Assembly: GCF_024448955.1 (NCBI RefSeq)
Contig: NZ_JAMOIH010000009.1
Coordinates: forward strand, 62,001 to 126,000
Length of the DNA stretch: 64,000 nt
Reading direction: 5' to 3'
Source: Stutzerimonas stutzeri
GTDB taxonomy: Bacteria; Pseudomonadota; Gammaproteobacteria; Pseudomonadales; Pseudomonadaceae
In this document: positions 32,901 through 49,502 of the stretch, piece by piece
Position numbering within the stretch: the stretch's first letter is position 1
Layout: each line of letters begins with the position of its first letter
Notes under the pieces: generated by a model
Told to the model about the DNA's origin: nothing
The model's input: the letters and a program-made list of their open reading frames with translations, nothing else
The model's database searches: none
Position numbers and translations under genes: made by a program

Positions 32901-33040
32901 ACCTGCGTTCCCAAACGAGCGCCAGGTACCGGCGGGAGCCCGCTGAGCAGCTGTCGCTATACACCAGAATGCTGTTGAGAGAACGCCGGTAGAACAAAGT
33001 TCCAGTTGGCGCAATTACCACTAATTGCGCCGATCAATGG

Positions 33041-34231
33041 TCATCCGTGGGCGACCGCAGGCCTGAGCGAATAGGTTCGCAGATGCTCGGCGAATTCACG
33101 CAGCGACTGGATGCCGCTGGCTTCGGCGTCCTGCACCCACTGCTTGATCGCAGCGAGCATCTCGTGACCGTTGGCACTGGTGCGAGTCCAGATCTGCTGC
33201 AGGGCCAGGCGCTGTTCGTAAATAACCCGCAGTGACTGACTCTGCTCGAGGATCACCTCGATGCGCGCCTGTTGCTCATGCTGCAGCAGGCTCGGTTCGC
33301 GCGACAGCAGCCGCTTGGCACGGCGGAACTGATGGCGCACCGATGCATCGGCGCATTGCAGTTCCAGACGCACCAGCGGTTTGATCACCAGCTTGCGGTA
33401 CTGCGCCATGATTTGGAAACGGTTGTTGAGGATCGCCATGGCGCTGTCCATGTCCAGCTGATGCTTGGGCGTGACGCGGTGCGCGATGGGCGCGGTGCGG
33501 TTGACCTTCGCCAGACCGAGCAGGCTGAACAGCTTGATCCAGGCCCAGCCCATGTCGAACTCCCACTTGCGCACTGACAGCTTGGCCGAGTTCGGGTAGG
33601 TATGGTGATTGTTGTGCAGCTCCTCGCCTCCGATGAGGATGCCCCACGGCACGAGGTTGGTCGCCGCGTCGCGGCATTCGAAGTTGCGATAGCCCACGGC
33701 ATGCCCCAGCCCATTGACCACCCCGGCGGCCCAGAGCGGAATCCAGATCATCTGCACCGCCCAGACGGTCAGGCCGATGACACCGAACAGCGCCAGATCA
33801 AGGGTGAGCATCAGCACGATGCCCAGGTTGGGGAAGCGTGAATAGAGGTTGCGCTCGATCCAGTCGTCCGGGCAGTTCTTGCCGTAGATGCGCAGAGTTT
33901 CCTCGTTCTTCGCCTCTTCCATGTACAGCTCGGCACCGCGCCGCAGCACCGTGCTCAGCCCTTTCTGTACCGGGCTGTGCGGATCGTCGGGCGTTTCGCA
34001 TTTAGCGTGGTGCTTACGGTGGATGGCGGTCCACTCGCGGGTATTCATCGCCGTGGTCAGCCACAGCCAGAAGCGGAAGAAGTGCTTGAGACCCGCGTTC
34101 AGCTCAAGCGAGCGGTGTGCCGAATAACGGTGCAGGTAAACCGTGACGGCGACGATGGTCACGTGAGTCAGAAGCAGCGTGGCCGCAACCACCTGCCAAG
34201 CCGAGAGGTCGAGAAACCCGGTGTACCACAT
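33041..34231 (-). CDS. desA: Membrane fatty acid delta-9 desaturase, DesA-like
   Basis: Di-iron membrane enzyme introducing double bonds into acyl chains, in Pseudomonas acting on phospholipid. It has 396 residues. The three histidine boxes are complete: HRYSAHR (about 34-40), HRKHHAK (about 72-78) and HNNHHTYP (about 205-212). Four hydrophobic stretches flank them. The C-terminal 120 residues are soluble and helical. The assignment to desA rather than desB rests on being beside the agu/spu genes and a GGDEF gene, as in PAO1. Confidence 0.88.
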   Translation of the reverse strand: MWYTGFLDLSAWQVVAATLLLTHVTIVAVTVYLHRYSAHRSLELNAGLKHFFRFWLWLTTAMNTREWTAIHRKHHAKCETPDDPHSPVQKGLSTVLRRGAELYMEEAKNEETLRIYGKNCPDDWIERNLYSRFPNLGIVLMLTLDLALFGVIGLTVWAVQMIWIPLWAAGVVNGLGHAVGYRNFECRDAATNLVPWGILIGGEELHNNHHTYPNSAKLSVRKWEFDMGWAWIKLFSLLGLAKVNRTAPIAHRVTPKHQLDMDSAMAILNNRFQIMAQYRKLVIKPLVRLELQCADASVRHQFRRAKRLLSREPSLLQHEQQARIEVILEQSQSLRVIYEQRLALQQIWTRTSANGHEMLAAIKQWVQDAEASGIQSLREFAEHLRTYSLRPAVAHG

Positions 34232-34521: not shown

Positions 34522-37470
34522 ATGAAAACCATCCCCCACCCCACCGACCCGCGTTGGATACTCGGCCTCGGCAGCCTGCTTCTCGCGTTGCTGTTCGGTG
34601 GTCTTGCCATCAATGATCACCAGGCACGCGATGCCGTCTGGACGCTGCAGACGGCGCAGCAAGGCGAACTCCAGGCACTGGCGTTGCGCAGCGCTCAGCA
34701 GGGACTGGAAGAGCAGGCCCGGTTGATCGCCAGTGCATTGAGCGCCAGCCCGGAGACGCTTCGGCTGGTTCGCCAGGCTGACCGCGCCGTGAAGGCCGGG
34801 GCTCAGTGGGACGGCCCTCGACTGGCCCGGATCCGCGAGCAGCTGTTCAGTTCGCTCACCCCGACCTGGACGGCCATGCAAGCCCACGGCGCGCTCCAGC
34901 TACAACTGTATCTGGGCAAAACAGGCATGGCGCTGCTGCGCATGCAGGATCCCGACGCGTTCGGTGATGCGGTCGCCGACCGCCGCCCTATGCTCTATCA
35001 GGCATTGATCCATGACCGGATCGTTTCCGGGTTGGATATCGGTCGGCGCAGCGCGGGCAACCGAGCCATCGTGCCAATCCGCGCCAGCAGCAGCTTTGAA
35101 AGCGAAGTGATCGGTGCCTTGGAGGTGGGGTTCGGCATCCTTCCCGATCTGACCGAACTGGGTCACCAGCTGAACGCCGGCCTGGGGCTGCTGGTGAACC
35201 GTGACGAGCTCAAGAATGTGTTCTGGACGCCTCCAGTCGGGATTCAGCTGCAAGGCCTTCCCGGCTGGCTGCTCGACACCCATTCGGCGCCGCAGATCCT
35301 GCAGTGGGCGCAACAGCGTTCGCTACCGGTGCCCGGGTCTGGACAAGCGCTGCGCCTGCTGGAGTCCGGCGGTCGCAGTTTCGTGCTCAATCAGGTGCCG
35401 CTGCACGACGTCAGGGCGGAACACAATCCAGGGCGTCTGCCTTTCGCCGTTGCGCTGGTCTGGCGAGACATCACCTTGGCACTGCGGGAGCAGCAGCAAG
35501 CCGAACGCCGCATTCTCATCAAATGGGGCCTGGCCTGGCTGATTGCCGAAGTACTGCTGCTGATCCTGGCCTTCATGCTCCACCGCCGTGGTGTCGTTCA
35601 GCGCATCCATCTGATCCGCTCGACGCGGCAGGAGCGCAACCGCAAGCGCCTGTTCGAGCGCGGACAGAAAATTGCCAGCCTGCTGCCCGGCATGGTCTTT
35701 CAGCTCAAACGCTCGCCTGAGGGCGCCTACAGCATTCTCTACGCCAGCGAGGGCTCGCGTGACCTCTATGGAATAGACCCCGAGCAGTTGGTCCAGAATG
35801 CAAACCACGCCTTCGCCGTGGTGTATGACCCTGACCGTCCCGCGTTGCGGGCCGCGATAGAGCGCTCGGCGGCCACCTTGGGCGGCGGCTCCACGCGCTA
35901 CCGGATCAACCACCGCGAAAAAGGGCTGATCTGGGTCGAAGTCAGGGCGACCGCCGAGCGCCTGCGTGATGGTTCGGTGCTCTGGCATGGCTTCATCGCC
36001 GATATCACGCCGTTCATGAATACCGCGATCGCGCTCAGTGAAAGCGAGAGCCGCTTCCGCAGCATGGTCAGCAATCTGCCGGGCGTGGTCTACCGGCGTG
36101 ACGGCGACGCCAATCGTACGATTCGTTATCTCAGCGACGGTATAGAGCGGCTGACGGGTTACCCGGTCAGCGATTTCCTTGCCCCCGGCACGCGCCGGTT
36201 CAGCAGCCTGATCCACCCGGAAGATCGTGCCGACCTGCAAGGCAGTGAAGCGGATCAGTTCGAACGCACCTACCGGCTGATCAACGCCCGCGGCGAAACG
36301 CTCTGGGTGCAGGAGAACAGCCGCGCACTGCGCGACGCCGAAGGCCGCCTGCTGTGGTACGACGGCTTCATCTCGGATGTCAGCGCCCGTGCCCTCGCCG
36401 AGCGCGAGGCCAACGAGCGTGAACGCTACGTGCGCCTGCTGATCGCCAACGTCGTCGACGCCATCATCATCATCAACCAGCGCGGCCTGATCGAAACCTT
36501 CAACCACGCCGCCGAGCGCACCTTCGGCTATAGCGAGGAAGAAATGCTGGGGCGAAACCTGTCGATGCTGATGCCCGAGCCGCACCGCGCCGCCCACGAT
36601 GGTCATCTCGAAGACTACGAGCGCCGCGGCGAAGGCCGCAGCCTGGAGCAGAACCGTGAATTGCAGGGGATGCGCCGCAATGGCGAGCTGTTCACCATCG
36701 AACTGCGCGTCTCGGAAATCAGCCACCGAGGCGAACGCAAGTTCATCGGCCTGGTGCGCGACATCACCGAGCGCAAGCGCATCGAGCAGATGAAGAGCGA
36801 GTTCGTCTCCATCGTCAGCCACGAGCTACGCACGCCGCTGACGTCGATTTCCGGCGCCCTGGGGCTGATCAACGGCGGTGCCGTCGGCGAGGTCCCGCCA
36901 GCGATCGGACAGTTGCTCAACATCGCGCAACAGAACAGCCAGCGCCTCGGCCTGTTGATCGATGACTTGCTGGACATGGAGAAGCTGATCGCCGGCCAGA
37001 TGAGCTTCCAGCTGCAGACCCAGCCTCTGGCGCCGTTGCTCGAAGATTCGCTTCGCTCGAATCAGGGCTACGCTGAACAGCACCGGGTGCGCCTGGAAAT
37101 GGGCGGGCAGGTGGACGTGCAGGTGTCGGTGGATGAGCATCGCCTGCAGCAGGTGCTGGCGAACTTGCTTTCCAACGCGGCGAAATTCTCGCCGGCTGGC
37201 GAAGTCGTAGTCTTGAGTAGCAGCCGTCGGGGCGATCAGGTCCGCGTGAGCGTCCGTGACGTTGGCCCGGGTATTCCGCAGACGTTTCGGCAGCGGATTT
37301 TCCAGAAGTTTTCCCAAGCCGATTCCTCCGATACCCGCCAGAAAGGCGGCACCGGCCTCGGCCTGGCGATCAGCAAGGAGCTGATCGAGCACATGCATGG
37401 ACGCATCGGTTTCGATTCCGAATTGGGCCAGGGTGCCTGTTTCTGGTTCGAACTGCCTGTTCAGGATTAG
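34522..37470 (+). CDS. Multi-PAS sensor histidine kinase
   Basis: Membrane kinase of 982 residues. Order: membrane helix (about 12-30), periplasmic Cache-like sensor (about 60-320), second helix (335-353), three PAS/PAC units (about 385-500, 505-625, 632-757), HisKA with H-box VSHELRTPLTSISGALGL (His near 767) and HATPase with DVGPGIP and GGTGLGLAISKEL. There is no receiver of its own. It is followed by a single-domain response regulator and a second kinase whose core is nearly the same. The ligand is unknown. It is divergent from desA across 290 bases. Confidence 0.92.
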   Translation: MKTIPHPTDPRWILGLGSLLLALLFGGLAINDHQARDAVWTLQTAQQGELQALALRSAQQGLEEQARLIASALSASPETLRLVRQADRAVKAGAQWDGPRLARIREQLFSSLTPTWTAMQAHGALQLQLYLGKTGMALLRMQDPDAFGDAVADRRPMLYQALIHDRIVSGLDIGRRSAGNRAIVPIRASSSFESEVIGALEVGFGILPDLTELGHQLNAGLGLLVNRDELKNVFWTPPVGIQLQGLPGWLLDTHSAPQILQWAQQRSLPVPGSGQALRLLESGGRSFVLNQVPLHDVRAEHNPGRLPFAVALVWRDITLALREQQQAERRILIKWGLAWLIAEVLLLILAFMLHRRGVVQRIHLIRSTRQERNRKRLFERGQKIASLLPGMVFQLKRSPEGAYSILYASEGSRDLYGIDPEQLVQNANHAFAVVYDPDRPALRAAIERSAATLGGGSTRYRINHREKGLIWVEVRATAERLRDGSVLWHGFIADITPFMNTAIALSESESRFRSMVSNLPGVVYRRDGDANRTIRYLSDGIERLTGYPVSDFLAPGTRRFSSLIHPEDRADLQGSEADQFERTYRLINARGETLWVQENSRALRDAEGRLLWYDGFISDVSARALAEREANERERYVRLLIANVVDAIIIINQRGLIETFNHAAERTFGYSEEEMLGRNLSMLMPEPHRAAHDGHLEDYERRGEGRSLEQNRELQGMRRNGELFTIELRVSEISHRGERKFIGLVRDITERKRIEQMKSEFVSIVSHELRTPLTSISGALGLINGGAVGEVPPAIGQLLNIAQQNSQRLGLLIDDLLDMEKLIAGQMSFQLQTQPLAPLLEDSLRSNQGYAEQHRVRLEMGGQVDVQVSVDEHRLQQVLANLLSNAAKFSPAGEVVVLSSSRRGDQVRVSVRDVGPGIPQTFRQRIFQKFSQADSSDTRQKGGTGLGLAISKELIEHMHGRIGFDSELGQGACFWFELPVQD

Positions 37471-37621
37471 TCTGCTGACGTTTCGTTCGCGACCGTGACG
37501 AACGTCCGCAGAACCTGGTGATGACAGGCTATTTTTTCATTGTGCCGCGTCAGTCGGCGGGCAAGCTGGCACACTGCTCGCCTGATCGTTCGCAAGGCGC
37601 ACTGGCCGACGGAGGCACCGC

Positions 37622-38008
37622 ATGACCGAGCTGAAACGGATACTCCACGTCGAGGACGATCCTTCCATACAGGCGGTGACGAAAGTCGCACTGGAAGCCA
37701 TCGGCGGCTATCAGGTACGGTCCTGCTCGTCCGGCCTGCAGGCGCTGGAGGAGGTCGAAGAGTTCGATCCGCACTTCATTCTGCTCGATGTGATGATGCC
37801 CGGTATGGGCGGCGCCGAAACCCTGACCCGGCTCAGCGAGCGGATCGACCTGACTCAGGTACCGGTCGCCTTCATGACCGCCAAGGTCCAGCCGGGGGAA
37901 ATAGAACATTTGCGCAAGCTCGGCGCGCGCGACGTGATTATCAAACCCTTCGATCCGATGCGCTTGGCCAGCCAGATTCGCGCGATCTGGGATTCCGGTC
38001 GCGCGTGA
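37622..38008 (+). CDS. Single-domain response regulator
   Basis: A 128-residue CheY-like receiver without output domain. Acidic pair in HVEDDPS, phospho-acceptor in ILLDVMMPGMGG (about residue 58), Thr in AFMTAK and Lys in IIKPFDP are all present, so it should be phosphorylatable. GGAGG six bases before ATG marks the start. It is closely similar to the receiver at 40452. It likely shuttles phosphate between one of the flanking kinases and the Hpt domain at 40825. Confidence 0.92.
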   Translation: MTELKRILHVEDDPSIQAVTKVALEAIGGYQVRSCSSGLQALEEVEEFDPHFILLDVMMPGMGGAETLTRLSERIDLTQVPVAFMTAKVQPGEIEHLRKLGARDVIIKPFDPMRLASQIRAIWDSGRA

Positions 38009-38052
38009 GTCGACGGCGTTCAGCCCTCAAACCAGTGAGACAGGTCAGCCAG

Positions 38053-40455
38053 ATGGAGCCACCGAAAGCGATGCCGGCACCCTCGCCACCGCGCGAGCTG
38101 TCTCGACTCGCCGCGCTGTTGCGTTACGAGATTCTCGACACGCCGGATGAGTCCGCGTTCGACGATTTCACCCAGCTGGCCTCGCATATATGCGACACCC
38201 CTATCGCGCTGATCTCGCTGGTCGACGACCATCGTCAGTGGTTCAAGAGCCGTCTCGGTCTGGACGTCAGCGAAACCCCACGCGGCATTTCCTTCTGCAC
38301 CCACACCATCGAAGGTGATGGTCTTTTCGAAGTCCATGATGCCCAACGGGACCAGCGTTTTCGCCACAACCCACTGGTGACCGGCGAGCCGCACATCCGC
38401 TTCTATGCCGGCGCGCCGCTGACCACGCCGGATGGCTACAACCTCGGCACCCTATGCGTGATCGACCGGCAACCGCGCCGCCTGAGCGAAGGCCAGCGCG
38501 ACGCACTGATGCGCCTGAGCCGGCAGATCATGCGCTTGTTCGAAGAGCGTCTGCAGGGACACCGCTACGCCGAGCAGGCGGCGCTGCACCAGGCCCTGCT
38601 CAACAGCGCCGCCAGTGCGATGGTGCTGACCACCGCTGACGGCCGAATTTCGGGCGTCAACCCGACCGCCGAGCGCCTGTTCGGGTATTCCGAGCGGATG
38701 CTGATCGACCGTTCACTGACCACGGCACTGTTCCCGCTGGATGCCCTGGTCCGGCGCGCCGCCATTCTCAGCAACGAACTGGGTGAGACCGTCGAGCCGG
38801 GATTCGCCGTACTCATAGCGCCACTGCTCGAAGGGCGGCGTGAAATGCGTGAGTGGCGCCTGTTACACCGAAACGGCGACAGCGTGCCGGTGCTGCTGAA
38901 CGTCTCGGCGATCCATGACGAACACGAACAGCTGCACGGTTATATCGTTAGCGCCTATGACTTGGCCCACCAGGAGAACCTGCAGCTACGTCTGCAGCAG
39001 ATCGCCGCGCAGGTGCCGGGCCTGCTGTTCCAGTTCTGCTGGCGCCCCGACGGCAGCAGCTCGTTTCCCTATCTCAGCGAAGGACTCGAGGACATCTACG
39101 GATTGAGTGCCGCCGAAATGGCACCGAGCATCGCGCCGATCTATTCCCGGGTGCATCTGAATGATCGCGCGCGCGTGCTGGCGAGCATCCGGCATGCCGC
39201 CGCTACCCTGACGCCCTGGCATTTCGAGCACCGCATCGACCACCCGCGCAAAGGCGTCATCTGGGTCGAGGCGCGCGCCACGCCGATGCGCCAAGCGGAT
39301 GGATCGGTGCTCTGGCACGGTCTGGTGACCGACATCACCGAGCGTAAGGCCGAGCAGACCGAACTGGACAAACAGCAGGAAATGAACCGGCGCCTGCTTG
39401 AAGCGCTGTCCGAAGCCGTCGTGGCCTGCGATGCCGAAGGCAACCTGACGCTGTTCAACAATACCGCGCGGCTCTGGCATGGCCTGGACGCAGCGCAGCT
39501 CTCCCCGGAACAGTGGCCGCAGTATTACCGCCTCTTTCAGGCGGACGGCGTGACGCCGATGCCCTATGACCAGGTCCCGCTGCTGCGTGCGCTGCGTGGC
39601 GAACGCATCCGCAACCAGGAAATGACGATCGTAGTGCACGGCACGGCCCGGCACGTGCTGGCCAATGCCGATCCGATGTTCGCATCCGACGGCCATCAGA
39701 ATGGCGCGGTGGTGGTGCTGCACGACATCACCGAGCGCAAGCAGATCGAGATCCTGCAGCGCGACTTCGTCTCGACCGTCAGCCACGAGCTGCGCACGCC
39801 GCTGACCTCCATTACCGCCTCGCTGGGGCTGATCTGTGGCGAGATCGTCGGCGAGGTGCCCGAGCATTTGCAGGAGCTGCTGGACATCGCCCACCAGAAC
39901 AGCAAGCGCCTGAGTGCGCTGATCGACGACCTGCTGGATATCGACAAGCTCTATGCCGGCAAGATGCGTTTCGAGATGCAGCGGCAGCCCTTGCAACCGT
40001 TGCTGGAGCAGGCGCTGCGCAGCAATCAGGGCTACGCCGAGAGCTACACTGTCAGCATTGAGTTGGGGAGCTGCCCAGCCGTGTCGATCGAGGTCGACAC
40101 GATGCGTCTGGAGCAGGTATTGAGCAACCTGCTATCCAACGCCGCCAAGTATTCTCCGCCCGGCGAAACCATCGAGCTATGGGCCGAAACGGTCGATGAT
40201 GCCAAGGTGCGTGTCAGCGTGCGCGACAAGGGGCCGGGGATCGCCGATACCTTCCGCGAGCGCATATTTAGCAAGTTCGCTCAGGCGGATTCGTCGGACA
40301 CGCGCCAGCAAGGCGGCACCGGCCTTGGCCTGGCCATCAGCAAGGAGCTGATCGAGCATATGCACGGACAGATCGGTTTTGACTCGATACCCGGCGCAGG
40401 CGCCTGTTTCTGGTTCGAGTTGCCTTGCTATCCGCCGCAGGAGGCTCAGCCGTGA
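38053..40455 (+). CDS. GAF-PAS sensor histidine kinase, soluble
   Basis: An 800-residue kinase without membrane helices. Order: GAF domain (about 18-165; CDTPIALISLVDDHRQWFKSR, SFCTHTI), three PAS regions (about 175-300, 315-440, 445-565), HisKA (VSHELRTPLTSITASLGL, His near 578) and HATPase (DKGPGI; GGTGLGLAISKEL). The second PAS and the core closely match the kinase at 34522. An alternative GTG at 38005 would overlap the previous stop by four bases (GTGA). The downstream receiver uses the same GTGA arrangement. Confidence 0.9.
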   Translation: MEPPKAMPAPSPPRELSRLAALLRYEILDTPDESAFDDFTQLASHICDTPIALISLVDDHRQWFKSRLGLDVSETPRGISFCTHTIEGDGLFEVHDAQRDQRFRHNPLVTGEPHIRFYAGAPLTTPDGYNLGTLCVIDRQPRRLSEGQRDALMRLSRQIMRLFEERLQGHRYAEQAALHQALLNSAASAMVLTTADGRISGVNPTAERLFGYSERMLIDRSLTTALFPLDALVRRAAILSNELGETVEPGFAVLIAPLLEGRREMREWRLLHRNGDSVPVLLNVSAIHDEHEQLHGYIVSAYDLAHQENLQLRLQQIAAQVPGLLFQFCWRPDGSSSFPYLSEGLEDIYGLSAAEMAPSIAPIYSRVHLNDRARVLASIRHAAATLTPWHFEHRIDHPRKGVIWVEARATPMRQADGSVLWHGLVTDITERKAEQTELDKQQEMNRRLLEALSEAVVACDAEGNLTLFNNTARLWHGLDAAQLSPEQWPQYYRLFQADGVTPMPYDQVPLLRALRGERIRNQEMTIVVHGTARHVLANADPMFASDGHQNGAVVVLHDITERKQIEILQRDFVSTVSHELRTPLTSITASLGLICGEIVGEVPEHLQELLDIAHQNSKRLSALIDDLLDIDKLYAGKMRFEMQRQPLQPLLEQALRSNQGYAESYTVSIELGSCPAVSIEVDTMRLEQVLSNLLSNAAKYSPPGETIELWAETVDDAKVRVSVRDKGPGIADTFRERIFSKFAQADSSDTRQQGGTGLGLAISKELIEHMHGQIGFDSIPGAGACFWFELPCYPPQEAQP

Positions 40456-40841
40456 GGCCATTGCAGCGGATTCTCCACGTCGAGGATGTGCCATCCATTC
40501 AGGTGGTGACCCGCATCGCCCTGGAGAAGCTCGGCGGCTTCGAGGTGCTCAGCTGCGCGTCCGGGCAGGAGGCGCTGGCGCGAGCCCAACGGTTCGCCCC
40601 AGACATGATTCTGCTCGACGTGATGCTGCCGCAGATGGGCGGCCTGGAGCTGCTGCGCCAGCTCTCTTCATTGATCGATCTGCAGCACATACCGGTCGTG
40701 CTGCTGACCGGACAGCAGGAAGAGCCCGCCAGCCCTGCCGAGTTGCGCCAACTCGGCGTTCGCAAGCTGTTGAGAAAGCCCTTCGATCCCCTTCAACTGG
40801 CCACACAATTAAAAGAAGTATGGAATGCCGATTATGAGTGA
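40452..40841 (+). CDS. Single-domain response regulator, GTG start
   Basis: A 129-residue receiver beginning at GTG, which overlaps the kinase stop (GTGA). Acidic residues in HVEDVPS, phospho-acceptor in ILLDVMLPQMGG, and Lys in LLRKPFDP are present. It is a clear paralogue of the receiver at 37622 (shared RILHVED.PSIQ.VT.IALE.LGG pattern), suggesting duplication of a kinase-receiver pair. Its 3' end overlaps the next gene. Confidence 0.92.
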   Translation: MRPLQRILHVEDVPSIQVVTRIALEKLGGFEVLSCASGQEALARAQRFAPDMILLDVMLPQMGGLELLRQLSSLIDLQHIPVVLLTGQQEEPASPAELRQLGVRKLLRKPFDPLQLATQLKEVWNADYE

Positions 40842-42471
40842 CAGCGCCCGCGAAGCGCTGCAAAGCCAATTGCAGGCGCTGAACGAGAAATTCGCCGAAC
40901 GCCTGAGCGAAGAGCTGGCGGAGCTCGAGCACCTCGCCAAACAGCTGTCGCAAGCTGACGAGCCGGAGCAACACCGGCAGCGGATGCTCGACCTCCATGA
41001 ACGCTTGCATCGCCTTGCCGGCACCGCGGGCACCTTCGGTTTTACTGCGCTGGGCCAGCGGTCACGGTTGCTGGAGCAGAGCGCGGACAGCTGGCTGCAA
41101 ACCGCCAACCCCGATCCGCAGCTGCTTGTCGAGTTCGCCCAGGCAGTTCGCCAGCAGGCCACCGATGCACCGCTCAGCGACTCGGCCAGCACCCCGCTCG
41201 ACCAGCCCGAAGCGCACGAACCGCCGGCCGCTCATCGCATCTACCTGCTCGAAAGCGATTCCGCGGCGGGACAGGAGATGTGCCAGACCCTCGGCAACTT
41301 TGGCTACGAAGTGCTGCTGTTTCAGGAAATCGCCTTGTTGCGAACGGCCATGAGCGGACAGGCGCCGGATGCCCTCATCATCAGCCGGCACGATGGCGAA
41401 CTCGAGCAGGTGAGCGCACTGCAGCAGACCCTGGAAACGCCGCTGCCACTGCTGGTGATCGATCATCGCGAGGATTTCGCCAGCCAGTTGGCTGCCGTAC
41501 GGGCGGGCGCAAAGGGCTACTTCACGCGCCCAGTGGATGTCACGCGGCTGGAGAATCGCCTCGAAAATTGTCTCAATCTACAGCTGAACGAGCCCTATCG
41601 CGTGCTTATCATCGACGACGACGTCGATCTGGCCGCTCGTTACAGCCTCGTACTGCGTAACTCGCAAATGCTGGTACAGACCCTGACCGATCCCGGCGAG
41701 CTGTTCGAGGTCATGCGCACGTTCAACCCGGAAATCCTCTTGCTCGACGTCAACATGCCCGAGCTCTCCGGCCCGGAGCTGGCGCAGATCATCCGCCTGA
41801 ACGACGATTGGCTACGGGTGACCATCATCTATTTGTCGGCCGAAACCGACGTCAACCGGCAGATGGCGGCCTTGCTCAAGGCCGGCGACGATTTCATCAC
41901 CAAACCCATCAGCGACAACGCGCTGATCGCCGCCGTGTTCTCCCATGCCCAGCGCGCGCGATCACTGAGCACAGCGCTTTCACGCGACAGCCTGACCGGA
42001 CTGCTCAAGCACGCCGACATCAAGGAGCATGTGGCCCTGGAAGTGGAGCGCTCGCTGCGCAGCGGCAATCCCGCCAGCGTGGTGATGCTCGATCTCGATC
42101 ACTTCAAGCAGGTCAACGACCAGTACGGCCATGCCGCCGGTGACAACGTGATCCGCTCGCTGGCCAATCTGATGCACCAACGGTTGCGCCGGATCGACAG
42201 CCTGGGCCGCTACGGCGGTGAAGAGTTCGTAGCGGTACTGCCCAATTGCACCGCGGAGCAGGCATGGCAGATATTCGACGAGATCCGCCAGCGCTTCGCG
42301 GAGCTGCGCTTCCACGCGGGCGAGCAGACATTCAACGTCACACTCAGCGCCGGCATCAGCGCCACCGATGGGCACGCCAGCGCCAGCACCTTGCTGGAGC
42401 ACGCCGACCAGGCGCTCTACGCTGCCAAGCACAAGGGTCGCAACCGGATCGAAATCGCTCAGCCGAAGTGA
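40825..42471 (+). CDS. Hpt-REC-REC-GGDEF diguanylate cyclase
   Basis: A 548-residue protein joining phosphorelay and c-di-GMP synthesis. Hpt domain (about 1-105, with HRLAGTAGTFGF), a degenerate receiver (about 135-255) in which the phospho-acceptor is Ser187 (PDALIIS) and the lysine is Arg (FTRP), an intact receiver (about 260-380, Asp308 in LLLDVNMPELSG, TKP), then GGDEF (YGGEEF) with an inhibitory RxxD (RRID) five residues upstream. Start 40825 overlaps the previous gene by 17 bases; ATG 40834 (MSDSAREAL) is an equally good alternative. Confidence 0.92.
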   Translation: MPIMSDSAREALQSQLQALNEKFAERLSEELAELEHLAKQLSQADEPEQHRQRMLDLHERLHRLAGTAGTFGFTALGQRSRLLEQSADSWLQTANPDPQLLVEFAQAVRQQATDAPLSDSASTPLDQPEAHEPPAAHRIYLLESDSAAGQEMCQTLGNFGYEVLLFQEIALLRTAMSGQAPDALIISRHDGELEQVSALQQTLETPLPLLVIDHREDFASQLAAVRAGAKGYFTRPVDVTRLENRLENCLNLQLNEPYRVLIIDDDVDLAARYSLVLRNSQMLVQTLTDPGELFEVMRTFNPEILLLDVNMPELSGPELAQIIRLNDDWLRVTIIYLSAETDVNRQMAALLKAGDDFITKPISDNALIAAVFSHAQRARSLSTALSRDSLTGLLKHADIKEHVALEVERSLRSGNPASVVMLDLDHFKQVNDQYGHAAGDNVIRSLANLMHQRLRRIDSLGRYGGEEFVAVLPNCTAEQAWQIFDEIRQRFAELRFHAGEQTFNVTLSAGISATDGHASASTLLEHADQALYAAKHKGRNRIEIAQPK

Positions 42472-42607
42472 GCGCTTCGCTGACAGGCCAAGCGAACGGC
42501 TGCATCGCGGTCGACTCTAACTACACTGGGTTGGGTATGTTCACGCCCAATGCGGCGAACCAATCGCCTCGACACCAACAACCGTTACCGGCGAAAGGAG
42601 CCCCGCT

Positions 42608-45478
42608 TTGCCTGCAAAGCCCGCGACAAGTTGGCACTCATTCGCTTTCCTGGTCGCTTTCGTTCTGCTCGCCGCGCTCGGCTGGCAAGGCAAGCGCAGT
42701 CAGGAAGCACTGCTGGAAGCCAACCAGTCGGTCAACCACAGCCTGGAAGTCATCACGGCTACCCAGGCGATACTGTCGTCGCTGCAGGATATCGAGACCG
42801 GCGTACGTGGCTTCGTTCTAACCGGCGAGCCCGACTATCTGGAACCCTACGAGCGCGGCCTGATGCAACTGGAGCAGCATCGCCGCAGGTTACAAATACT
42901 CTCCCGCGATCACATATACCCCGCCCCGCAATGGTTCGACCGGCTCGACGAAAGAATGGCCGATCGACTGACGATCGCCGCCGATAATATCCAGACGCGT
43001 CGTGATACCGATCTGCAAACCGCCGCCGCCTACCTCGCGCAAGCCGGGGGCAAAGAGGTCATGGACCAGCTCCGCGTCTTGCTCGCTGCGGTGGAACAAC
43101 ACGAGCGGCGTCGCCTCACCGAGGGCAGCCGCGCCGTAGCCGAAACCATCGAGCGTAACCGACAATTCGCACTGATCGGCAGCCTCCTGGTGGCCATCCT
43201 GTTCCTCGCTGCCATGTGGTCGGTCCAGCGCAATCTACGGCTGCGTCAAGCGCTGGCAGTCAAGGCGCAAGCCGGCGAGGCGCGCCTGGGCGCGCTGTTG
43301 CAAGCGATTCCGGACAACCTCTATGCCATCGACGACGAGCGCCGGGTGTCTGCCCTGTCCCAGCCGAGCGAAGGTCGTGGTCCATCGCCCGGTGCAATCG
43401 AGCCGCTGCTGGCAGGGTTACTGCCGCAGGCGGACGACATTTGCAAGCTGCGCCAGACGACTTGGTGCGAACACGAACAACAACGGACATTCGAGGTACG
43501 GCTGGCACCCACCGGACTTGGCGATCACCTGGCCATCGCCCGCGATATCACCGAACTGCAGCGCAGCCGAGACACACTCGAGGATCAGAAGGCCTACATG
43601 CGGCGGGTTGCCGATACCAATGAGAACCTGATTTTCGTACGCGACGAGCAGGGCCGTTTCGTGCTCTGCAACCGCGCGTTTTCCGCTCTGCTCGATCAAT
43701 CGCCTGAAACCGTCGAGCAACGCCGGGCCGACGAGATTGCTGGCGCGCAGCTGTTGTTGCCGCTATTGCAGGGTGAAACCGAGCTGTTGAGCGGCGGCGG
43801 TGAGTTGCGCATCACCGAAGTGAGCGTCACCGATGTGCATGGCCAGGAGCGCTGGCTGCAGGTGGTCAAGCGGCCCATGACGATGACCAGCGGCGCCTGC
43901 CACATCGTGACCGTCGCGGTCGATATTTCGCTGCGCCGACGCGTGGAACAGATGAAGGGCGAGTTCATCTCCACGGTCAGCCATGAATTGCGCACACCGC
44001 TGACCGCCATTCGCGGCGCGCTGGGCATGCTGGTCGGCGGCGTGGCCGGCGAGATCGGCGAGGGCGCGCGGCCGTTGCTGGATATCGCGCACAAGAACAG
44101 CGAGCGCCTGGTACGCCTGATCAACGACATTCTCGATATCGAAAAGCTCGAAGCCGGGCACCTATCGTTCCACTACAGTCGCTGCGATATACGAGCGCTG
44201 GTAGAACAGGCCCTGCTGGATCTCAAGCCATACGGCGATGACTATGACGTTGTCCTGACGTTCGTGGTCCCGGACGACATCGGGCCGATCGAAGCGACCG
44301 TCGACCCGGACAGATTCGCTCAGGTGATGGCCAATCTGCTGTCCAATGCGATCAAGCACTCGCCTCGCGGCGGCGTGGTCAGCGTCGACTTGCATCGCGA
44401 CGGCAGCGACCTGGAGATCGGTATCCAGGATCAGGGCCAGGGCATTCCGGAAAGCTTTCGCTCACGCATATTCGAACGCTTCGCCCAAGCCGATTCGTCC
44501 GATACGCGCAAGCGCGGCGGCACCGGGCTGGGGCTGGCGATCACCCGTTCGCTGGTGCAGCAGATGCACGGGCACATCGGCTTCGACTCGCAAGAGGGCC
44601 AGGGCACGCGGTTCTGGCTGCGACTGCCGTTGTCGGCGGAACCGCCCGCGAGCCCACCTACCGTACTGCAACCGCTACCGGCGACCGATATGCAGCGGTC
44701 CGCGGCGCGTATCCTGATACTCGAACCCGATGCGCCAGCTGCCGAACAGCTGGCCAATGCGCTGCAACAACACGGCTACTCGACCCTGATCGCCGAAACC
44801 GCCGCCCAGGCCCGCGACCTGCTGGCCGAATACAGCATCCAGGCACTGACCTTGAGCCCTGCGCTGAACGATGAGAACAGCATTGCCTTCCTGCACAATT
44901 TGCGCAGCCAGAGCGCCTATCGCCATCTGCCGGTGCTCATCGTCAGCCTGCAACCCCAGCGACGCGACAACGATGACGGCGCGCTGCGCGGCGGCGCGGT
45001 GGGCGTGATCGACTGGCTGCATAAGCCGATCGACCCGTCACGGGTAATGGATGTGGTGCGCGCCTGCCTCGACACCAACGGCACTCGCCCGCGGGTTCTG
45101 CACGTCGAAGACGACGAGGATCTGCGCGTGTTGCTGGCACGACAGATCGCACCCCTGGACATCGACCTGCTGGGTGCAGCGACCCTGGCCGAAGCCCGCG
45201 AGCGGATTGCCGCGCAACGCTACGACCTGGCGATCATCGACTTGATGCTGCCCGACGGTAACGGCAGCGAACTCTTCGATCAGCTGGCCCAAACCGTCCC
45301 ACCCCCGCCGGTCATCATTTTTTCCGCGCTGGACTCGCCCGTGCATGACAGTCGCCTAGCGATGCGCCAGCTGATCAAATCGCGCCACGACGGCCACGAG
45401 TTGGCCAACCTTATCCAGCACATGCTTCAACACTGGCCATCTGGCCAAACTTCGGATTCTGACGAGGCCCACGCATGA
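42608..45478 (+). CDS. CHASE3 hybrid histidine kinase with two receivers
   Basis: Membrane hybrid kinase of 956 residues. Start is TTG with AAAGGAG seven bases upstream. Order: helix (about 10-28), CHASE3 sensor (30-175; DIETGVRGFVLTGEPDYLEPY), helix (about 192-208), PAS (about 330-440), HisKA (VSHELRTPLTAIRGALG, His459), HATPase (GGTGLGLAITRSL), a degenerate receiver where the acceptor is Ser750 (LTLSPAL), and an intact receiver with Asp878 (IIDLMLPDGNG). The stop overlaps the next receiver gene by four bases. It probably feeds that receiver. Confidence 0.92.
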   Translation: MPAKPATSWHSFAFLVAFVLLAALGWQGKRSQEALLEANQSVNHSLEVITATQAILSSLQDIETGVRGFVLTGEPDYLEPYERGLMQLEQHRRRLQILSRDHIYPAPQWFDRLDERMADRLTIAADNIQTRRDTDLQTAAAYLAQAGGKEVMDQLRVLLAAVEQHERRRLTEGSRAVAETIERNRQFALIGSLLVAILFLAAMWSVQRNLRLRQALAVKAQAGEARLGALLQAIPDNLYAIDDERRVSALSQPSEGRGPSPGAIEPLLAGLLPQADDICKLRQTTWCEHEQQRTFEVRLAPTGLGDHLAIARDITELQRSRDTLEDQKAYMRRVADTNENLIFVRDEQGRFVLCNRAFSALLDQSPETVEQRRADEIAGAQLLLPLLQGETELLSGGGELRITEVSVTDVHGQERWLQVVKRPMTMTSGACHIVTVAVDISLRRRVEQMKGEFISTVSHELRTPLTAIRGALGMLVGGVAGEIGEGARPLLDIAHKNSERLVRLINDILDIEKLEAGHLSFHYSRCDIRALVEQALLDLKPYGDDYDVVLTFVVPDDIGPIEATVDPDRFAQVMANLLSNAIKHSPRGGVVSVDLHRDGSDLEIGIQDQGQGIPESFRSRIFERFAQADSSDTRKRGGTGLGLAITRSLVQQMHGHIGFDSQEGQGTRFWLRLPLSAEPPASPPTVLQPLPATDMQRSAARILILEPDAPAAEQLANALQQHGYSTLIAETAAQARDLLAEYSIQALTLSPALNDENSIAFLHNLRSQSAYRHLPVLIVSLQPQRRDNDDGALRGGAVGVIDWLHKPIDPSRVMDVVRACLDTNGTRPRVLHVEDDEDLRVLLARQIAPLDIDLLGAATLAEARERIAAQRYDLAIIDLMLPDGNGSELFDQLAQTVPPPPVIIFSALDSPVHDSRLAMRQLIKSRHDGHELANLIQHMLQHWPSGQTSDSDEAHA

Positions 45479-45864
45479 GTGATTCCGGCACCCAGCGCAT
45501 TCTGATGGTGGAGGACGAGGAGGACATCGCCTTCCTCATCCGTTTCATGCTCGAGCGGCACGGGTTCACCGTCGAACATGCTGCAGATGGTCGCCAGGCC
45601 ATCGAGAAGATCACTGCCTCCGCGCCACCCGACCTGACCCTGATGGACATCATGCTGCCGTATCACGACGGCCTCGAACTGATCGAACGGCTGCGCGCTC
45701 AGCCTGGCTGGGAACGCGTGCCGGTGCTGATGCTGACCGCTAAGGCACGCGAAGTAGACATCGTCCGGGCGCTGGAACTCGGTGCCGATGACTATGTAAC
45801 CAAGCCCTTCCAGCCGGAGGAACTGCTGGCGCGCATCCGCCGCCTGCTGAGGAGACCGCGATGA
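45475..45864 (+). CDS. Single-domain response regulator
   Basis: A 129-residue receiver with MVEDEED, acceptor in LTLMDIMLPYHDG, Thr in LMLTAK and Lys in VTKPFQP. Overlaps of four bases on both sides (hybrid kinase before, outer-membrane protein after) place it in one operon with the export genes. It resembles OmpR-family receivers in sequence but has no DNA-binding domain, so it likely acts through protein contact, perhaps on the synthase complex. Confidence 0.92.
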   Translation: MSDSGTQRILMVEDEEDIAFLIRFMLERHGFTVEHAADGRQAIEKITASAPPDLTLMDIMLPYHDGLELIERLRAQPGWERVPVLMLTAKAREVDIVRALELGADDYVTKPFQPEELLARIRRLLRRPR

Positions 45865-46991
45865 ACCGATTGGCTCTGGCCTTCGCCGTCTCCCTGCTGC
45901 CATCGCTGGCGATCGCCGATCTCGCCACCGCCCAGCGCCAGGTCGAGGCGCAGCAGTTCGACGCCGCCGAGGCATCCCTGCAGGCTCATCTGGCAAGCGA
46001 GCCCGATGACAGCGAAGCGCAATTTCTGCTGGCGCGCGTGCACGCCTGGCGGGGCGCGCCCGAGCAGGCACTGCCGCTGTATGAGGGGCTGCTGCAGCGG
46101 GAACCAGACAACGCCGATTACCTGCTCGGTCAGGGCCAGGCGCTGCTTTGGGCCGGACGACCGCAGGCGGCATTGATCTCGCTGGAGCGGGCGGCGGAGA
46201 CAGCGCCAGATTACGTCGAAGTCCAACAGGTGATGCAGCAGGCACGCGCCGCGCTGACCTCACCGGTTACCGCCACTGCGCCAGCTGCTACTGCGCCGAC
46301 CCAGCGACGCCACGAACTCGAATTGTCGGCCCGCCAGGACTGGCTAGACAGCGGCTTCGACAACTGGCGCAGCCAGCGTCTGGACTACGCATCGACGCAG
46401 CCGGAAGGTTTGGGCTGGTACGGCGCGCTGCTGCGCGAACAACGTTTCGGCGAATGGGACCAGGGCGCAGAAGCCGGCGCGGTGATCCCCCTGGACGAAA
46501 ACTGGACGCTGCAACCGGAGATCGGCTATCAGCCATCGCCTTACTTCCTGCCTGACTGGCACGCCGATGTCCGCCTGCAACGGCGCCTACCAGACGGCTT
46601 TCTCGGTGCCGCCAGCGTTCGGCGTACCGAGTACGAAACGACCCGAGTCGATCGTCTGGCTCTTAGCGCCGAGCGTTACTGGAATTCCTGGCGCGCCGGT
46701 TACACCCTGAACGTCACCGACGTGGCCAACGCAGGAACGCCGATCGGTCACGATCTGGCACTGGATTTCTACTACGCTGGGCTCAGCTATGCCGGCCTTC
46801 GCCTGACGGTCGGCGAGGAAGAAGCTGTCGAGGAACAGCAGCTGATTACCAGCGATGTGCGTGCCATCAGCCTGCAGGGCCGCCATTGGCTGGACCGCCA
46901 CTGGGCGCTGACCTGGGAGCTCGGCCACCACCGCCAAGGTGACTACTACACGCGCCGTTGGCTGCAATTCGGCCTGCGTCATGCTTTCTGA
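45861..46991 (+). CDS. TPR/beta-barrel outer-membrane protein, YaiO-like
   Basis: A 376-residue exported protein. Signal peptide (1-19, ends SLAIA), then TPR-type helices (about 22-125; FDAAEASLQAHLASEPDD..., LPLYEGLLQREPDNADYLLGQGQALLWAGR), an Ala/Thr/Pro linker (about 134-148), and a C-terminal domain of alternating aromatic strands ending in LRHAF, a typical barrel-closing Phe. The layout matches YaiO and, in miniature, PgaA-type exporters. It is translationally coupled to the receiver before it and sits before a glycosyltransferase, suggesting a polysaccharide secretion pore. Confidence 0.85.
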   Translation: MNRLALAFAVSLLPSLAIADLATAQRQVEAQQFDAAEASLQAHLASEPDDSEAQFLLARVHAWRGAPEQALPLYEGLLQREPDNADYLLGQGQALLWAGRPQAALISLERAAETAPDYVEVQQVMQQARAALTSPVTATAPAATAPTQRRHELELSARQDWLDSGFDNWRSQRLDYASTQPEGLGWYGALLREQRFGEWDQGAEAGAVIPLDENWTLQPEIGYQPSPYFLPDWHADVRLQRRLPDGFLGAASVRRTEYETTRVDRLALSAERYWNSWRAGYTLNVTDVANAGTPIGHDLALDFYYAGLSYAGLRLTVGEEEAVEEQQLITSDVRAISLQGRHWLDRHWALTWELGHHRQGDYYTRRWLQFGLRHAF

Positions 46992-47067
46992 GTTGGCGGC
47001 GAACTGCCCGACCTGGCTCTGCGAATCGCCGCGCCAGGCGTGGCGGGCGGTCTGGCCGGAAGATGCC

Positions 47068-48105
47068 ATGCTGCAATTGGCGCTTTACTGTGCGCTAGGC
47101 TTGGCCGGGCTCACCTTGCTAGTGATGGTGCAGGTGCTGCTGCTGGGCGAGGTGGCCCGCCGGCGCTCAGCGCGACGGCACCAGTTCAACGACCAATGGC
47201 GCCCTTTCTTCGCCCTTTGCAGCCTCGGCGATACGCTGCCCGAGCCTTTGCCTGTGCTGCCACGCGGTCGCCAGCTGTGGTTTTTGCTGCAATGGAATCG
47301 CACCCAGCTGCAACTGCGCGGCGCGGCGCGGGAACGGATGAATCGTGCGCTGGTCGCGCTGGAGATGGACCGTAGGGCGCTGGCGCTGCTACGCGGGCGG
47401 GTGCGAAGCAAGCTGATCGGGCTGACCTGCCTGCGCCACCTGGCCGATCCGGGCCATTGGGAGGCGGTGCAGCCATTGCTCATGAGCCGCAACATGATCG
47501 TCTCGCTGACCGCGGCGCAGGCGCTGATCGCCATAGACGCCGTTCGGGCGATGCATCTGATCCTGCCCGCTGCCGCGACACGCCCGGACTGGGCACTGCC
47601 GCGTCTTGCCAGTCTCTGCCAGCAGGCCGGCGAACAGGCGGTCACCGCGCCATTGTTGATAACTCTGTCCAACTCTGACGGGCCGCGACGCGAGCGGCTA
47701 ATCCCGCTGCTGGTTCATGGCGATCCACGCCATGCCGCACCCTGGGCACGTGCACGACTCGAAGAGGGCGCCGCGCCGGAGCAGCTGCAGATCGCATTGC
47801 GCTGCCTTTGCGAACTGGGCGATCCGCGTGACCGCTCCCTTCTGCTACACGCTCTCAGGCACAGCCACGCCGATGTTCGGCTGGGAGCACTGCAAGCGCT
47901 GCACAAGCAGGCGCGCGATGACGACAGCGAGCTGTTCCTGCCCCTGCTTGGCGATCGCAGCTGGTGGGTCCGTCAAACCGCTGCGGACTGTCTGGCAACG
48001 CTGCCACGCAACACGCCCGAACGGCTCCAGGCGCTGCTCGCGCAGGTGGGAGATCGCTACGGACAGGACGCACTGCGCCGTGCTATCGCCGAGGTGCGCC
48101 GATGA
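47068..48105 (+). CDS. Membrane-anchored HEAT-repeat protein
   Basis: A 345-residue protein: one N-terminal membrane helix (about 2-24, LALYCALGLAGLTLLVMVQVLLLG), then cytoplasmic alpha-helical repeats. HEAT-like units are clear around LIGLTCLRHLADPGHWEAVQPLL, ADVRLGALQALHKQARDDDSELFLPLLGD and WVRQTAADCLATL. Start 47068 has GGAAG five bases upstream; ATG 46981 would overlap the previous stop. The stop overlaps the glycosyltransferase start (ATGA). It is probably a scaffold for the synthase or a docking site for a receiver; that is inference. Confidence 0.82.
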   Translation: MLQLALYCALGLAGLTLLVMVQVLLLGEVARRRSARRHQFNDQWRPFFALCSLGDTLPEPLPVLPRGRQLWFLLQWNRTQLQLRGAARERMNRALVALEMDRRALALLRGRVRSKLIGLTCLRHLADPGHWEAVQPLLMSRNMIVSLTAAQALIAIDAVRAMHLILPAAATRPDWALPRLASLCQQAGEQAVTAPLLITLSNSDGPRRERLIPLLVHGDPRHAAPWARARLEEGAAPEQLQIALRCLCELGDPRDRSLLLHALRHSHADVRLGALQALHKQARDDDSELFLPLLGDRSWWVRQTAADCLATLPRNTPERLQALLAQVGDRYGQDALRRAIAEVRR

Positions 48106-49502
48106 GCATCGACTGGCTGTGGTGGTTGCAGTTGGGCTTCATCCTCTACTTCCTGCTGCTCAACGGCATGTATCTGCTGCTCAACCTGCTGTCGATGGTC
48201 AGCCTGATGAGCTACATCCGTCAGCGCGCCGAAACCGGCGAGGCCGCGCCTTATCTCGGCGTTGAGCCTCCGGTTTCGGTGCTGATGCCCGCCTTCAACG
48301 AGGAAGCGACCATTCGCACTTCGGTTCGCTCGATGTTGCAGCTGCAGTACCCTGAGTTCGAAGTCGTGGTCATCAACGACGGTTCGAAGGACAACACGCT
48401 AGCCGTGCTTATCGAGGAATTCGAACTGGTCCCGCATCCCGAGCCGCTGCGCCAGGCCGTGGCCCATCAGCCGGTGCAGGCTATCTATCGCTCGCGGCGC
48501 TACGCCAATCTACGGGTAATCGACAAAGCCAACGGCGGCAAAGCCGACGCGCTGAATGCCGGCATCAATGCCGCGCGGCATGGCTTGTTCTGCGGCGTCG
48601 ATGCCGATTCCATTCTCCAGCGCGACAGCCTGCTGCGCGTGGTCCAGCCCTTTCTCGAAGATGAGCGCACTGTCGCCGCCGGGGGCACCGTGCGCATCGC
48701 CAACGGCTCCGAAGTCCGCGGCGGCTTCCTGATCCGTGCCGGGTTGCCGAGCAACTGGCTGGCGCGCTTTCAGATCGTCGAGTATTTGCGCGCCTTTCTC
48801 TTCGGTCGCCTCGGCTGGTCACCCATGAACGCGGTGCTGATCATCTCCGGCGCCTTCGGCCTGTTTGACCGCGAACGGGTCATGGCTGTCGGCGGCTATC
48901 GCACCGACACCGTCGGCGAAGACATGGAATTGGTGGTGCGGCTGCATCGTTACCATCGCGAGCGACGCATTCCCTACCGCATCCGTTATTTGCCCGACCC
49001 GATCTGCTGGACTGAATGCCCGGAAGACATCGGCACCCTTGGCCGTCAGCGCAGCCGCTGGCAACGCGGGTTGGCAGAGAGTCTTGGCCGTCACGCGCGC
49101 CTCGCTTTCAGCTGGCGCGGGGGTACACCGGGATGGCTGGCCTGGCCGTTCATGGCACTGTTCGAATGGCTGGGACCGCTGATCGAGCTGGTCGGTTACG
49201 GCTTCATGATCGGCGGGTTCGTGTTTGGGGTCGTGTCTTATGCGGCACTGACAGCCTTCCTGCTGGTAGCGATCGGTATGGGCATTTTGTTGTCGGTGAA
49301 CGGCCTGTTGCTGGAAACCATGTCGTTCCGCGTTTATGAGCGTCGACGCGACATGCTGCGGCTGTTCCTAATGGCCGTGCTGGAGAACTTCGGTTACCGC
49401 CAGCTCAACACCTTCTGGCGTTGCCGCGGGCTCTGGCAATGGTTCTCACGACGCAAGCATCAGTGGGGCGCGATGCGCCGCAGCGGTAGTTGGGGGCAGT
49501 AG
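48102..49502 (+). CDS. Processive family-2 glycosyltransferase
   Basis: A 466-residue inner-membrane polysaccharide synthase. N-terminal helices (about 8-38), GT2 domain with VVINDGSKDNT, GVDADS, the acceptor-base motif GEDMELV and processivity motif QRSRWQRG (about residue 320), then at least three C-terminal helices. This architecture is that of PgaC, NodC and hyaluronan synthases. There is no PilZ domain. The ATG at 48102 overlaps the HEAT gene. The sugar polymerised cannot be read from the sequence. It is the last gene of the operon. Confidence 0.9.
   Translation: MSIDWLWWLQLGFILYFLLLNGMYLLLNLLSMVSLMSYIRQRAETGEAAPYLGVEPPVSVLMPAFNEEATIRTSVRSMLQLQYPEFEVVVINDGSKDNTLAVLIEEFELVPHPEPLRQAVAHQPVQAIYRSRRYANLRVIDKANGGKADALNAGINAARHGLFCGVDADSILQRDSLLRVVQPFLEDERTVAAGGTVRIANGSEVRGGFLIRAGLPSNWLARFQIVEYLRAFLFGRLGWSPMNAVLIISGAFGLFDRERVMAVGGYRTDTVGEDMELVVRLHRYHRERRIPYRIRYLPDPICWTECPEDIGTLGRQRSRWQRGLAESLGRHARLAFSWRGGTPGWLAWPFMALFEWLGPLIELVGYGFMIGGFVFGVVSYAALTAFLLVAIGMGILLSVNGLLLETMSFRVYERRRDMLRLFLMAVLENFGYRQLNTFWRCRGLWQWFSRRKHQWGAMRRSGSWGQ

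Follow-up and report, generated by a model that had tools for sequence, protein, structure and literature searches.

The window analysed here is a stretch of 64,000 nucleotides from Stutzerimonas stutzeri (contig NZ_JAMOIH010000009.1, positions 62,001 to 126,000 of the forward strand), and the system under study is an operon of ten plus-strand genes at window positions 34522-49502. The source genome measures 4.35 Mb, and the nearest named relatives of the HEAT-repeat and glycosyltransferase proteins of the operon are Stutzerimonas or Pseudomonas records. The ten genes encode three histidine kinases (HK1 to HK3), three lone receivers (R1 to R3), an Hpt-REC-REC-GGDEF protein, a TPR-YaiO protein, a membrane-anchored HEAT protein and a processive-type family 2 glycosyltransferase (GT2, hereafter GT). 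All ten frames are open and match the families assigned to them in the original prediction, which had been drawn from the letters of the window and had described a sensor-to-matrix unit whose phosphorelay sets receiver activity and local cyclic di-GMP (c-di-GMP). Its description of junctions overlapping by 4-17 bases is correct for most of them; gaps are found at 37471-37621 and 42472-42607, and a further gap of 44 bases results if HK2 starts at 38053.

The signalling half of the operon opens with HK1 (34522-37470), a PAS-PAS-PAS-HisKA-HATPase kinase with an intact H-box (SHELRTPLTS), which is followed by R1 (37622-38008). HK2 (38053-40455; alternative GTG start at 38005) has the arrangement GAF-PAS-HisKA-HATPase and, read from the ATG at 38053, comprises 800 residues, the same length as in four loci of the genus (L033, L034, L037 and L040; L numbers denote individual loci throughout). 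R2 (40452-40841) is the nearest neighbour of R1 on the receiver tree. In the Hpt-REC-REC-GGDEF protein (40825-42471), the Hpt motif reads HRLAGTAGTFG, and the GGDEF domain displays the motif GGEEF and an I-site-like RRID. The hybrid kinase HK3 (42608-45478) is a CHASE3-PAS-HisKA-HATPase-REC-REC protein. R3 (45475-45864), with Asp58, Thr88 and Lys110, finds its best NCBIfam match in the receiver half of PhoB (136 bits, under the whole-protein cut-off), and its relatives adjoin HEAT genes in other phyla. The H, N and G boxes are kept in all three kinases, the Hpt domain keeps its His, and R1, R2 and R3 all keep Asp, Thr and Lys. The GGDEF protein and HK3 each embed two receivers, and in both proteins the phospho-Asp is lost from the first REC and kept in the second. 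At the level of residues, the operon thus contains every station of a multistep phosphorelay: kinase, Asp receiver, Hpt His and terminal Asp receiver.

The last three genes form the polysaccharide-type half. The TPR-YaiO protein (45861-46991), an outer-membrane beta-barrel and predicted export port, scores well above the curated cut-offs of both TIGR04390 (147 bits, cut-off 32) and PF19413 (93.2 bits, cut-off 23.9). The HEAT gene is placed here at 46981-48105; the start at 47068 given originally is probably internal, because the commonest length among HEAT homologues is 374 residues and the homologues align from the ATG at 46981. The model of the protein (predicted local distance difference test, pLDDT, 93) consists of a long N-terminal helix and a helical solenoid, and the helix (residues 29-82) is a predicted membrane anchor running into the cytoplasm. 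The nearest solved folds are binding solenoids of the alphaRep, armadillo and importin types, found at modest TM (template modelling) scores. The membrane GT2 (48102-49502) matches PF00535, PF13641 and PF13632, and carries the processive motif set D, D, D, QxxRW as DGS93, DADS167, GED272 and QRSRW316.

The identity of the GT was assessed against known synthases. It reaches 143.9 bits against the PgaC model (cut-off 422.3) and 50.4 bits against CelA (cut-off 699.1), NodC was likewise rejected on model score, and a sequence search of the Protein Data Bank with the GT profile gave nothing above 50.4 bits. Pfam found no PilZ domain in HEAT or GT, no known c-di-GMP receptor domain among the matches of HEAT, GT and YaiO, and no PgaB-type deacetylase domain in the ten genes. 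The original prediction had been unable to place the operon among the Pel, Psl, Pga, cellulose or alginate loci; model scores bear this out for Pga and cellulose synthase, and Pel, Psl and alginate were judged by which domains the ten genes encode.

The operon is well conserved within the genus. The GT is found at 86% identity or more in 25 of 37 genus genomes, that of the window included, and among eleven same-genus loci that were opened, nine (L033 and L036-L043) have the full ten-gene order followed by the same two genes, an aldehyde dehydrogenase and an aminotransferase. Such retention indicates that the ten-gene order is not due to chance. In L041 HK3 is split across two frames; L034 has no HK1 match, and L035 is reduced to HK3-R3-YaiO-HEAT-GT. 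The view of phosphorelay genes and a polysaccharide-type synthase as one unit is thus upheld at the level of the genus. A HEAT profile search over the order detected the gene in 6 of 390 genomes, including two of the window's own and one more of the same genus. Outside the genus, the core was seen in four HEAT-bearing genomes of the 390 searched (L029-L032). Two of these (L029 and L030) display HK3-R3-YaiO-HEAT-GT, and L031 contains an HK1-like kinase, R1, R3, YaiO, HEAT and GT but nothing that matches the GGDEF protein. L032 encodes a kinase and a protein that begins Hpt-like and has two receivers but, judged by eye, lacks a GGDEF domain; a HEAT gene (weak profile match), GT, YaiO and a divergent kinase-R1 pair accompany them.

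Relatives of the GT were then collected by scanning a species-genome collection with a GT alignment. The best 80 of 488 relatives, which are the best scorers and not a random draw, come from 15 named phyla and 3 unassigned genomes. Seventy-five loci with at least 1.5 kb upstream were scored (L055, L063, L082, L085 and L088 were dropped for short upstream sequence), and 70 had room for a receiver (L062 and L114 also dropped). Domains were called with profiles that derive from the window plus a handful of loci, the same loci serving for iteration; a Pfam check of ten locus proteins confirmed HEAT in 5 of 6, together with three receiver proteins and one YaiO. HEAT lies directly upstream of the GT (68 loci) or is fused to it (4 loci: L096, L099, L105 and L106) in 72 of the 75. 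The three exceptions are the Nitrospira loci L050, L052 and L053, where HEAT and GT share a locus but are some kilobases apart; in L050 and L052 a receiver stands just before the distant HEAT. A receiver gene is found beside HEAT in 57 of the 70 loci, with YaiO between them in 16, and these 57 span 12 named phyla and one unassigned genome. The conserved core is therefore HEAT with GT, and after it the receiver beside HEAT. Dereplication at 75% GT identity leaves 60 loci, with HEAT in 57, a receiver in 43 and GGDEF in 15.

Two further samples provide controls for these counts. Among 398 Pseudomonadota genomes, a GT match at 1e-25 or better occurs in 36 genomes (37 places), and the scores split between 324.6 and 173.7 bits, with 14 matches above the gap and 23 below. 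The window and three others of the 14 were already in hand, so that 10 were newly fetched, along with all 23 lower ones. HEAT stands beside 10/10 of the newly fetched close GTs (324-693 bits) versus 0/23 of the lower matches (91-174 bits), and the order REC-YaiO-HEAT-GT is seen in nine of the ten. A receiver gene within 7 kb occurs in only two of the 23 lower matches: in L184 it is some kilobases off, and in L186 it lies directly beside the low-scoring GT but is divergent and part of a kinase-regulator pair. A receiver next to HEAT is commoner than chance. In a sample of 369 gammaproteobacterial genomes, the GT is present at 1e-60 in 17, that of the window included, and all other 16 loci have HEAT beside the GT, convergent with it in L144 and as a fragment next to a GT with an internal stop in L152.

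An independent view is offered by plasmid annotation. A tblastn search against plasmids returned 14 records, of which 12 were opened (all but H2 and H3, of the same species as H1) and 11 are annotated. HEAT is named directly before the GT in 10 of the 11; the Emticicia gene in that position is called hypothetical. A response regulator precedes the HEAT-position gene, directly or with one gene between, in 7 of the 11. All three haloarchaeal records (Salinirubellus, Haloarcula and Halosolutus; L190, L193 and L195) have response regulator, HEAT and GT in this order, with one small gene between in Halosolutus. The downstream genes of Halosolutus, a sugar-phosphate nucleotidyltransferase and glmS, hint at N-acetylglucosamine, and our guess is that the polymer contains this sugar. 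UDP-glucose-type or nucleotide-sugar dehydrogenase genes occur in Paenibacillus L104 and in Legionella adelaidensis, which suggests that the polymer may differ by lineage. On the Planococcus plasmid (L200, 1-6242), genes for a DUF4956 protein and a CotH kinase adjoin HEAT-GT, and a Pfam-unmatched protein of 689 residues occupies the slot before HEAT.

The wider sample bears directly on the place of c-di-GMP, and does not support local c-di-GMP as the defining control. Counts within 8.5 kb of the GT describe the fetched loci rather than the rest of the genomes, and are lower bounds since some loci end sooner; they give GGDEF in 21 of 75 loci, a kinase in 36 and Hpt in 16. The relay could nevertheless act by controlling the GGDEF protein, so that local c-di-GMP activates the synthase and R3 only routes phosphate. 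The cellulose and poly-N-acetylglucosamine (PNAG) synthases are activated in this manner, the GGDEF motif of the window is intact and accompanied by its I-site-like motif, and GGDEF is common in Bacillota (10 of 18 loci, mostly inside the receiver protein itself). Yet it is absent within 8.5 kb from 54 of the 75 loci and from all 17 of Bacteroidota, where HEAT is found in 17/17 and a receiver in 16/17. Moreover, none of the 10 newly fetched Pseudomonadota loci has GGDEF within 7 kb (or up to the end of the fetched stretch, where this comes sooner), the GG(D/E)E core is absent from 11 of the 23 GGDEF domains detected in the loci, and L035 keeps the core module with no GGDEF gene, in addition to the lack of a PilZ match in GT or HEAT. 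Neither kinase nor GGDEF is near in 31 of 75 loci (counted by hand); the original prediction had itself named GT homologues free of such genes as an observation that would speak against it, and for its c-di-GMP part they do. We therefore consider c-di-GMP unlikely to be the actual switch.

The receivers themselves were compared on a tree of 157 sequences from the loci and the window, from which L045-L047 and fragments shorter than 85 residues were left out. The label "beside HEAT" requires 7 changes on this tree versus a mean of about 45 upon shuffling (0 of 500 shuffles were as low), a clustering to which kinship contributes. Most HEAT-adjacent receivers (44 of 55) fall, together with 5 others, in the largest group, whose support is weak (77). 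R1 and R2 belong to a clade of 12 rows (97) shared with receivers from alphaproteobacterial and Burkholderiales loci of the same module, and the HK3 receivers cluster (96 and 93) with receivers of HK-REC-REC proteins that the module has in Alphaproteobacteria, both of which point to a shared old relay. In 7 Bacillota loci a REC-GGDEF-REC protein stands immediately before HEAT and supplies the receiver with its C-terminal domain; six of these C-terminal receivers make up a single clade (100, which also takes in one further receiver) within the main group. The phospho-Asp is kept in 49 of the 57 HEAT-adjacent receivers, and in favor of a working switch, a kinase lies within 8.5 kb for 35/49 of these versus 0/8 of the Asp-less receivers (Fisher p 0.0002).

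The natural HEAT-GT fusions are evidence that HEAT and GT act together, and are silent on R3. In the model of the fusion L096 (pLDDT 83, predicted TM score 0.78), the HEAT half is a helical solenoid; 10 of 11 database matches to the fusion, the record of the query included, span 76-100% of its length. PF13646 is present in the fusion homologues P0110 and P0111, while Pfam gave no HEAT match in L108 or in the HEAT half of L096. That the GT makes a short glycan, a glycolipid or a wall decoration instead of a long exported polymer is very improbable in our judgement. In Empedobacter L110 (9962-13390) a scanned relative is fused to a sulfatase domain (PF00884), presumably of the kind found in lipoteichoic acid (LTA) synthases, and on the Emticicia plasmid (L199) a gene of the LTA synthase family follows YaiO, close to the GT. 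Both are in keeping with a wall decoration; phosphoglycerol substitution of the polymer is another possible explanation of them. Against a short product stand the D, D, D, QxxRW motif set of the GT, the fold of the fusion (rather than of the window GT), which resembles hyaluronan, chitin and cellulose synthases, these being among its nearest folds, and the occurrence of a TPR-YaiO partner within 3.5 kb of the GT in 30 of 75 loci.

Taken together, we somewhat favor a reading of the operon as a synthase-dependent exopolysaccharide system in which a receiver domain is the general switch. In the mechanism that we propose, HK3, with inputs from HK1 and HK2, would phosphorylate its own C-terminal receiver, and the phosphate would reach R3 by way of the Hpt domain in the GGDEF protein. 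Phospho-R3 would dock on the membrane-anchored HEAT solenoid, which would hold and gate the GT2 synthase. The synthase would polymerise and extrude a sugar chain, and the TPR-YaiO barrel would carry this chain across the outer membrane. In Stutzerimonas the Hpt carrier also bears the active-looking GGDEF domain, which would let this relay make c-di-GMP as an added branch; c-di-GMP appears to be a lineage-specific extra in Stutzerimonas and some other lineages. The sequences directly show the gene content, the intact residues for catalysis and phosphate acceptance, the kept gene order, natural fusions of HEAT with GT and the grouping of receivers beside HEAT; the path of the phosphate, the contact of R3 with HEAT, the gating of the GT and the polymer are inferred.

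Several observations weigh against the receiver as general switch. HEAT and GT can exist without a receiver: only 8 of the 16 gammaproteobacterial loci have one beside HEAT, which makes HEAT the stricter partner and the receiver common but dispensable. Four of the 11 annotated plasmid records (Deinococcus, Bacteroides, Planococcus and Legionella) show none in the 5-6 kb displayed, and by script 13 of the 70 loci across phyla lack it; by eye, L074 among those 13 has a receiver in an overlapping frame and three Paenibacillus loci have a receiver downstream. Among the fetched loci no REC-HEAT fusion came to light; the one candidate, L074, looks by eye like two overlapping frames. The main group of the tree leaves out 11 of the 55 HEAT-adjacent receivers, among which are the four beside HEAT-GT fusions and that of L089, one of the seven REC-GGDEF-REC proteins. 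In Marinimicrobia it is the C-terminal receiver of an Hpt-REC-GGDEF-REC protein that joins the group, while the lone HEAT-adjacent receiver stays outside. The link between loss of the Asp and a missing kinase is weakened in that kinship was not corrected for and that the sequence of some of the loci concerned ends early on one side. Finally, some synthases may bind c-di-GMP at an unrecognised site.

The receiver is unevenly present (a minority of loci lack it in one sample, half of them in another), which could be taken to mean that HEAT-YaiO-GT is the synthase and that the lone receivers are phosphate sinks or carriers, co-regulated only, with R3 never touching HEAT. R1, R2 and R3 could indeed be intermediate carriers between three kinases. 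Such a role is difficult to reconcile with the receivers that stay beside HEAT with neither kinase nor Hpt nearby (e.g., L054, L064 and L083) and in archaea, with the grouping of most HEAT-adjacent receivers on the tree, and with the fused receivers of the seven Bacillota loci. We thus regard pure sinks or carriers as quite improbable, and return to a receiver that would act on the synthase through HEAT.

Post-translational control of exopolysaccharide synthases is usually told through c-di-GMP, which controls the cellulose, alginate, Pel and PNAG synthases, and its cyclases are rare in groups such as Bacteroidota or archaea. As a generalization, it is quite possible, if rather less likely than not, that REC-HEAT-GT constitutes an undescribed class of polysaccharide synthases, spread over 12 bacterial phyla and haloarchaea, in which a phospho-receiver gates the enzyme through contact with HEAT and thereby fills the role of c-di-GMP. 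A HEAT-GT fusion beside an Asp-less receiver, as in some Clostridia, a spirochaete and an acholeplasma, may be locked. A module of receiver and HEAT synthase, present also in Bacteroidota and archaea, would offer a direct and testable link between two-component signalling and matrix production. Lone receivers, often of unknown output, gain a concrete candidate target, and a single label could cover the HEAT and GT genes, which at present carry separate annotations.

The surroundings of the module deserve a brief description. Just upstream of the operon, on the minus strand, lies a PAS-GGDEF diguanylate cyclase gene (31902-33014), and next to it, also on the minus strand, a fatty acid desaturase gene (33041-34231; PF00487), whose C-terminal residues 290-387 match an ISL3-type transposase model (PF01610). 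The desaturase is kept beside the operon across the genus. In the wider sample, a family of Pfam-unmatched proteins occurs near HEAT-GT in 21 of 80 loci (e.g., L075, 5827-8877); the Pfam scan covered four large unmatched neighbours of 707-1089 residues.

A comparison with known systems reveals partial similarities. The Pga system (PgaABCD/IcaA) shares a GT2 synthase with related domains, and presumably also a TPR-barrel export protein and control after translation; by contrast, the operon GT falls far under the PgaC cut-off, no deacetylase domain accompanies it, and HEAT and a receiver are found instead. The Bcs system is similar in its membrane GT2 synthase and TPR-barrel exit (BcsA/BcsC), and differs in that the operon GT and HEAT lack a PilZ match and the GT lies far under the CelA cut-off. 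Hyaluronan and chitin synthases, which extrude their product as single subunits, are alike in being among the nearest solved folds of the natural HEAT-GT fusion; identity in the structural alignments is about 15%, and the module has a HEAT partner and a receiver in addition. In E. coli, a YaiO barrel is encoded near a GT2 gene, where no HEAT or receiver gene is known. No description of the REC-HEAT-GT module as a unit was found in the open-licence literature, where most matches were judged from listings.

Two published loci also call for comparison. In the accessible part of the report on NELoc-2 of Clostridium perfringens, CP4_0467 (HEAT) is followed by CP4_0468 (a GT2, called chitin synthase), and a table groups VTC, CotH, HEAT and GT genes, with tubulin-like genes adjoining; that part shows no function for the HEAT-GT pair (PMC2879425). 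No receiver is named in that part, and the HEAT-GT2 order is like that of the operon (PMC2879425). The sea cluster of S. stutzeri MJL19 shares the genus with the operon and is described, in the available part of the article, as a species-specific exopolysaccharide cluster whose deletion is linked to biofilm on a biotic surface (PMC12125118). The comparison is one of descriptions rather than of matched gene lists; the authors equate sea with the A1501 cluster called pel, which suggests a gene set other than that of the operon (PMC12125118).

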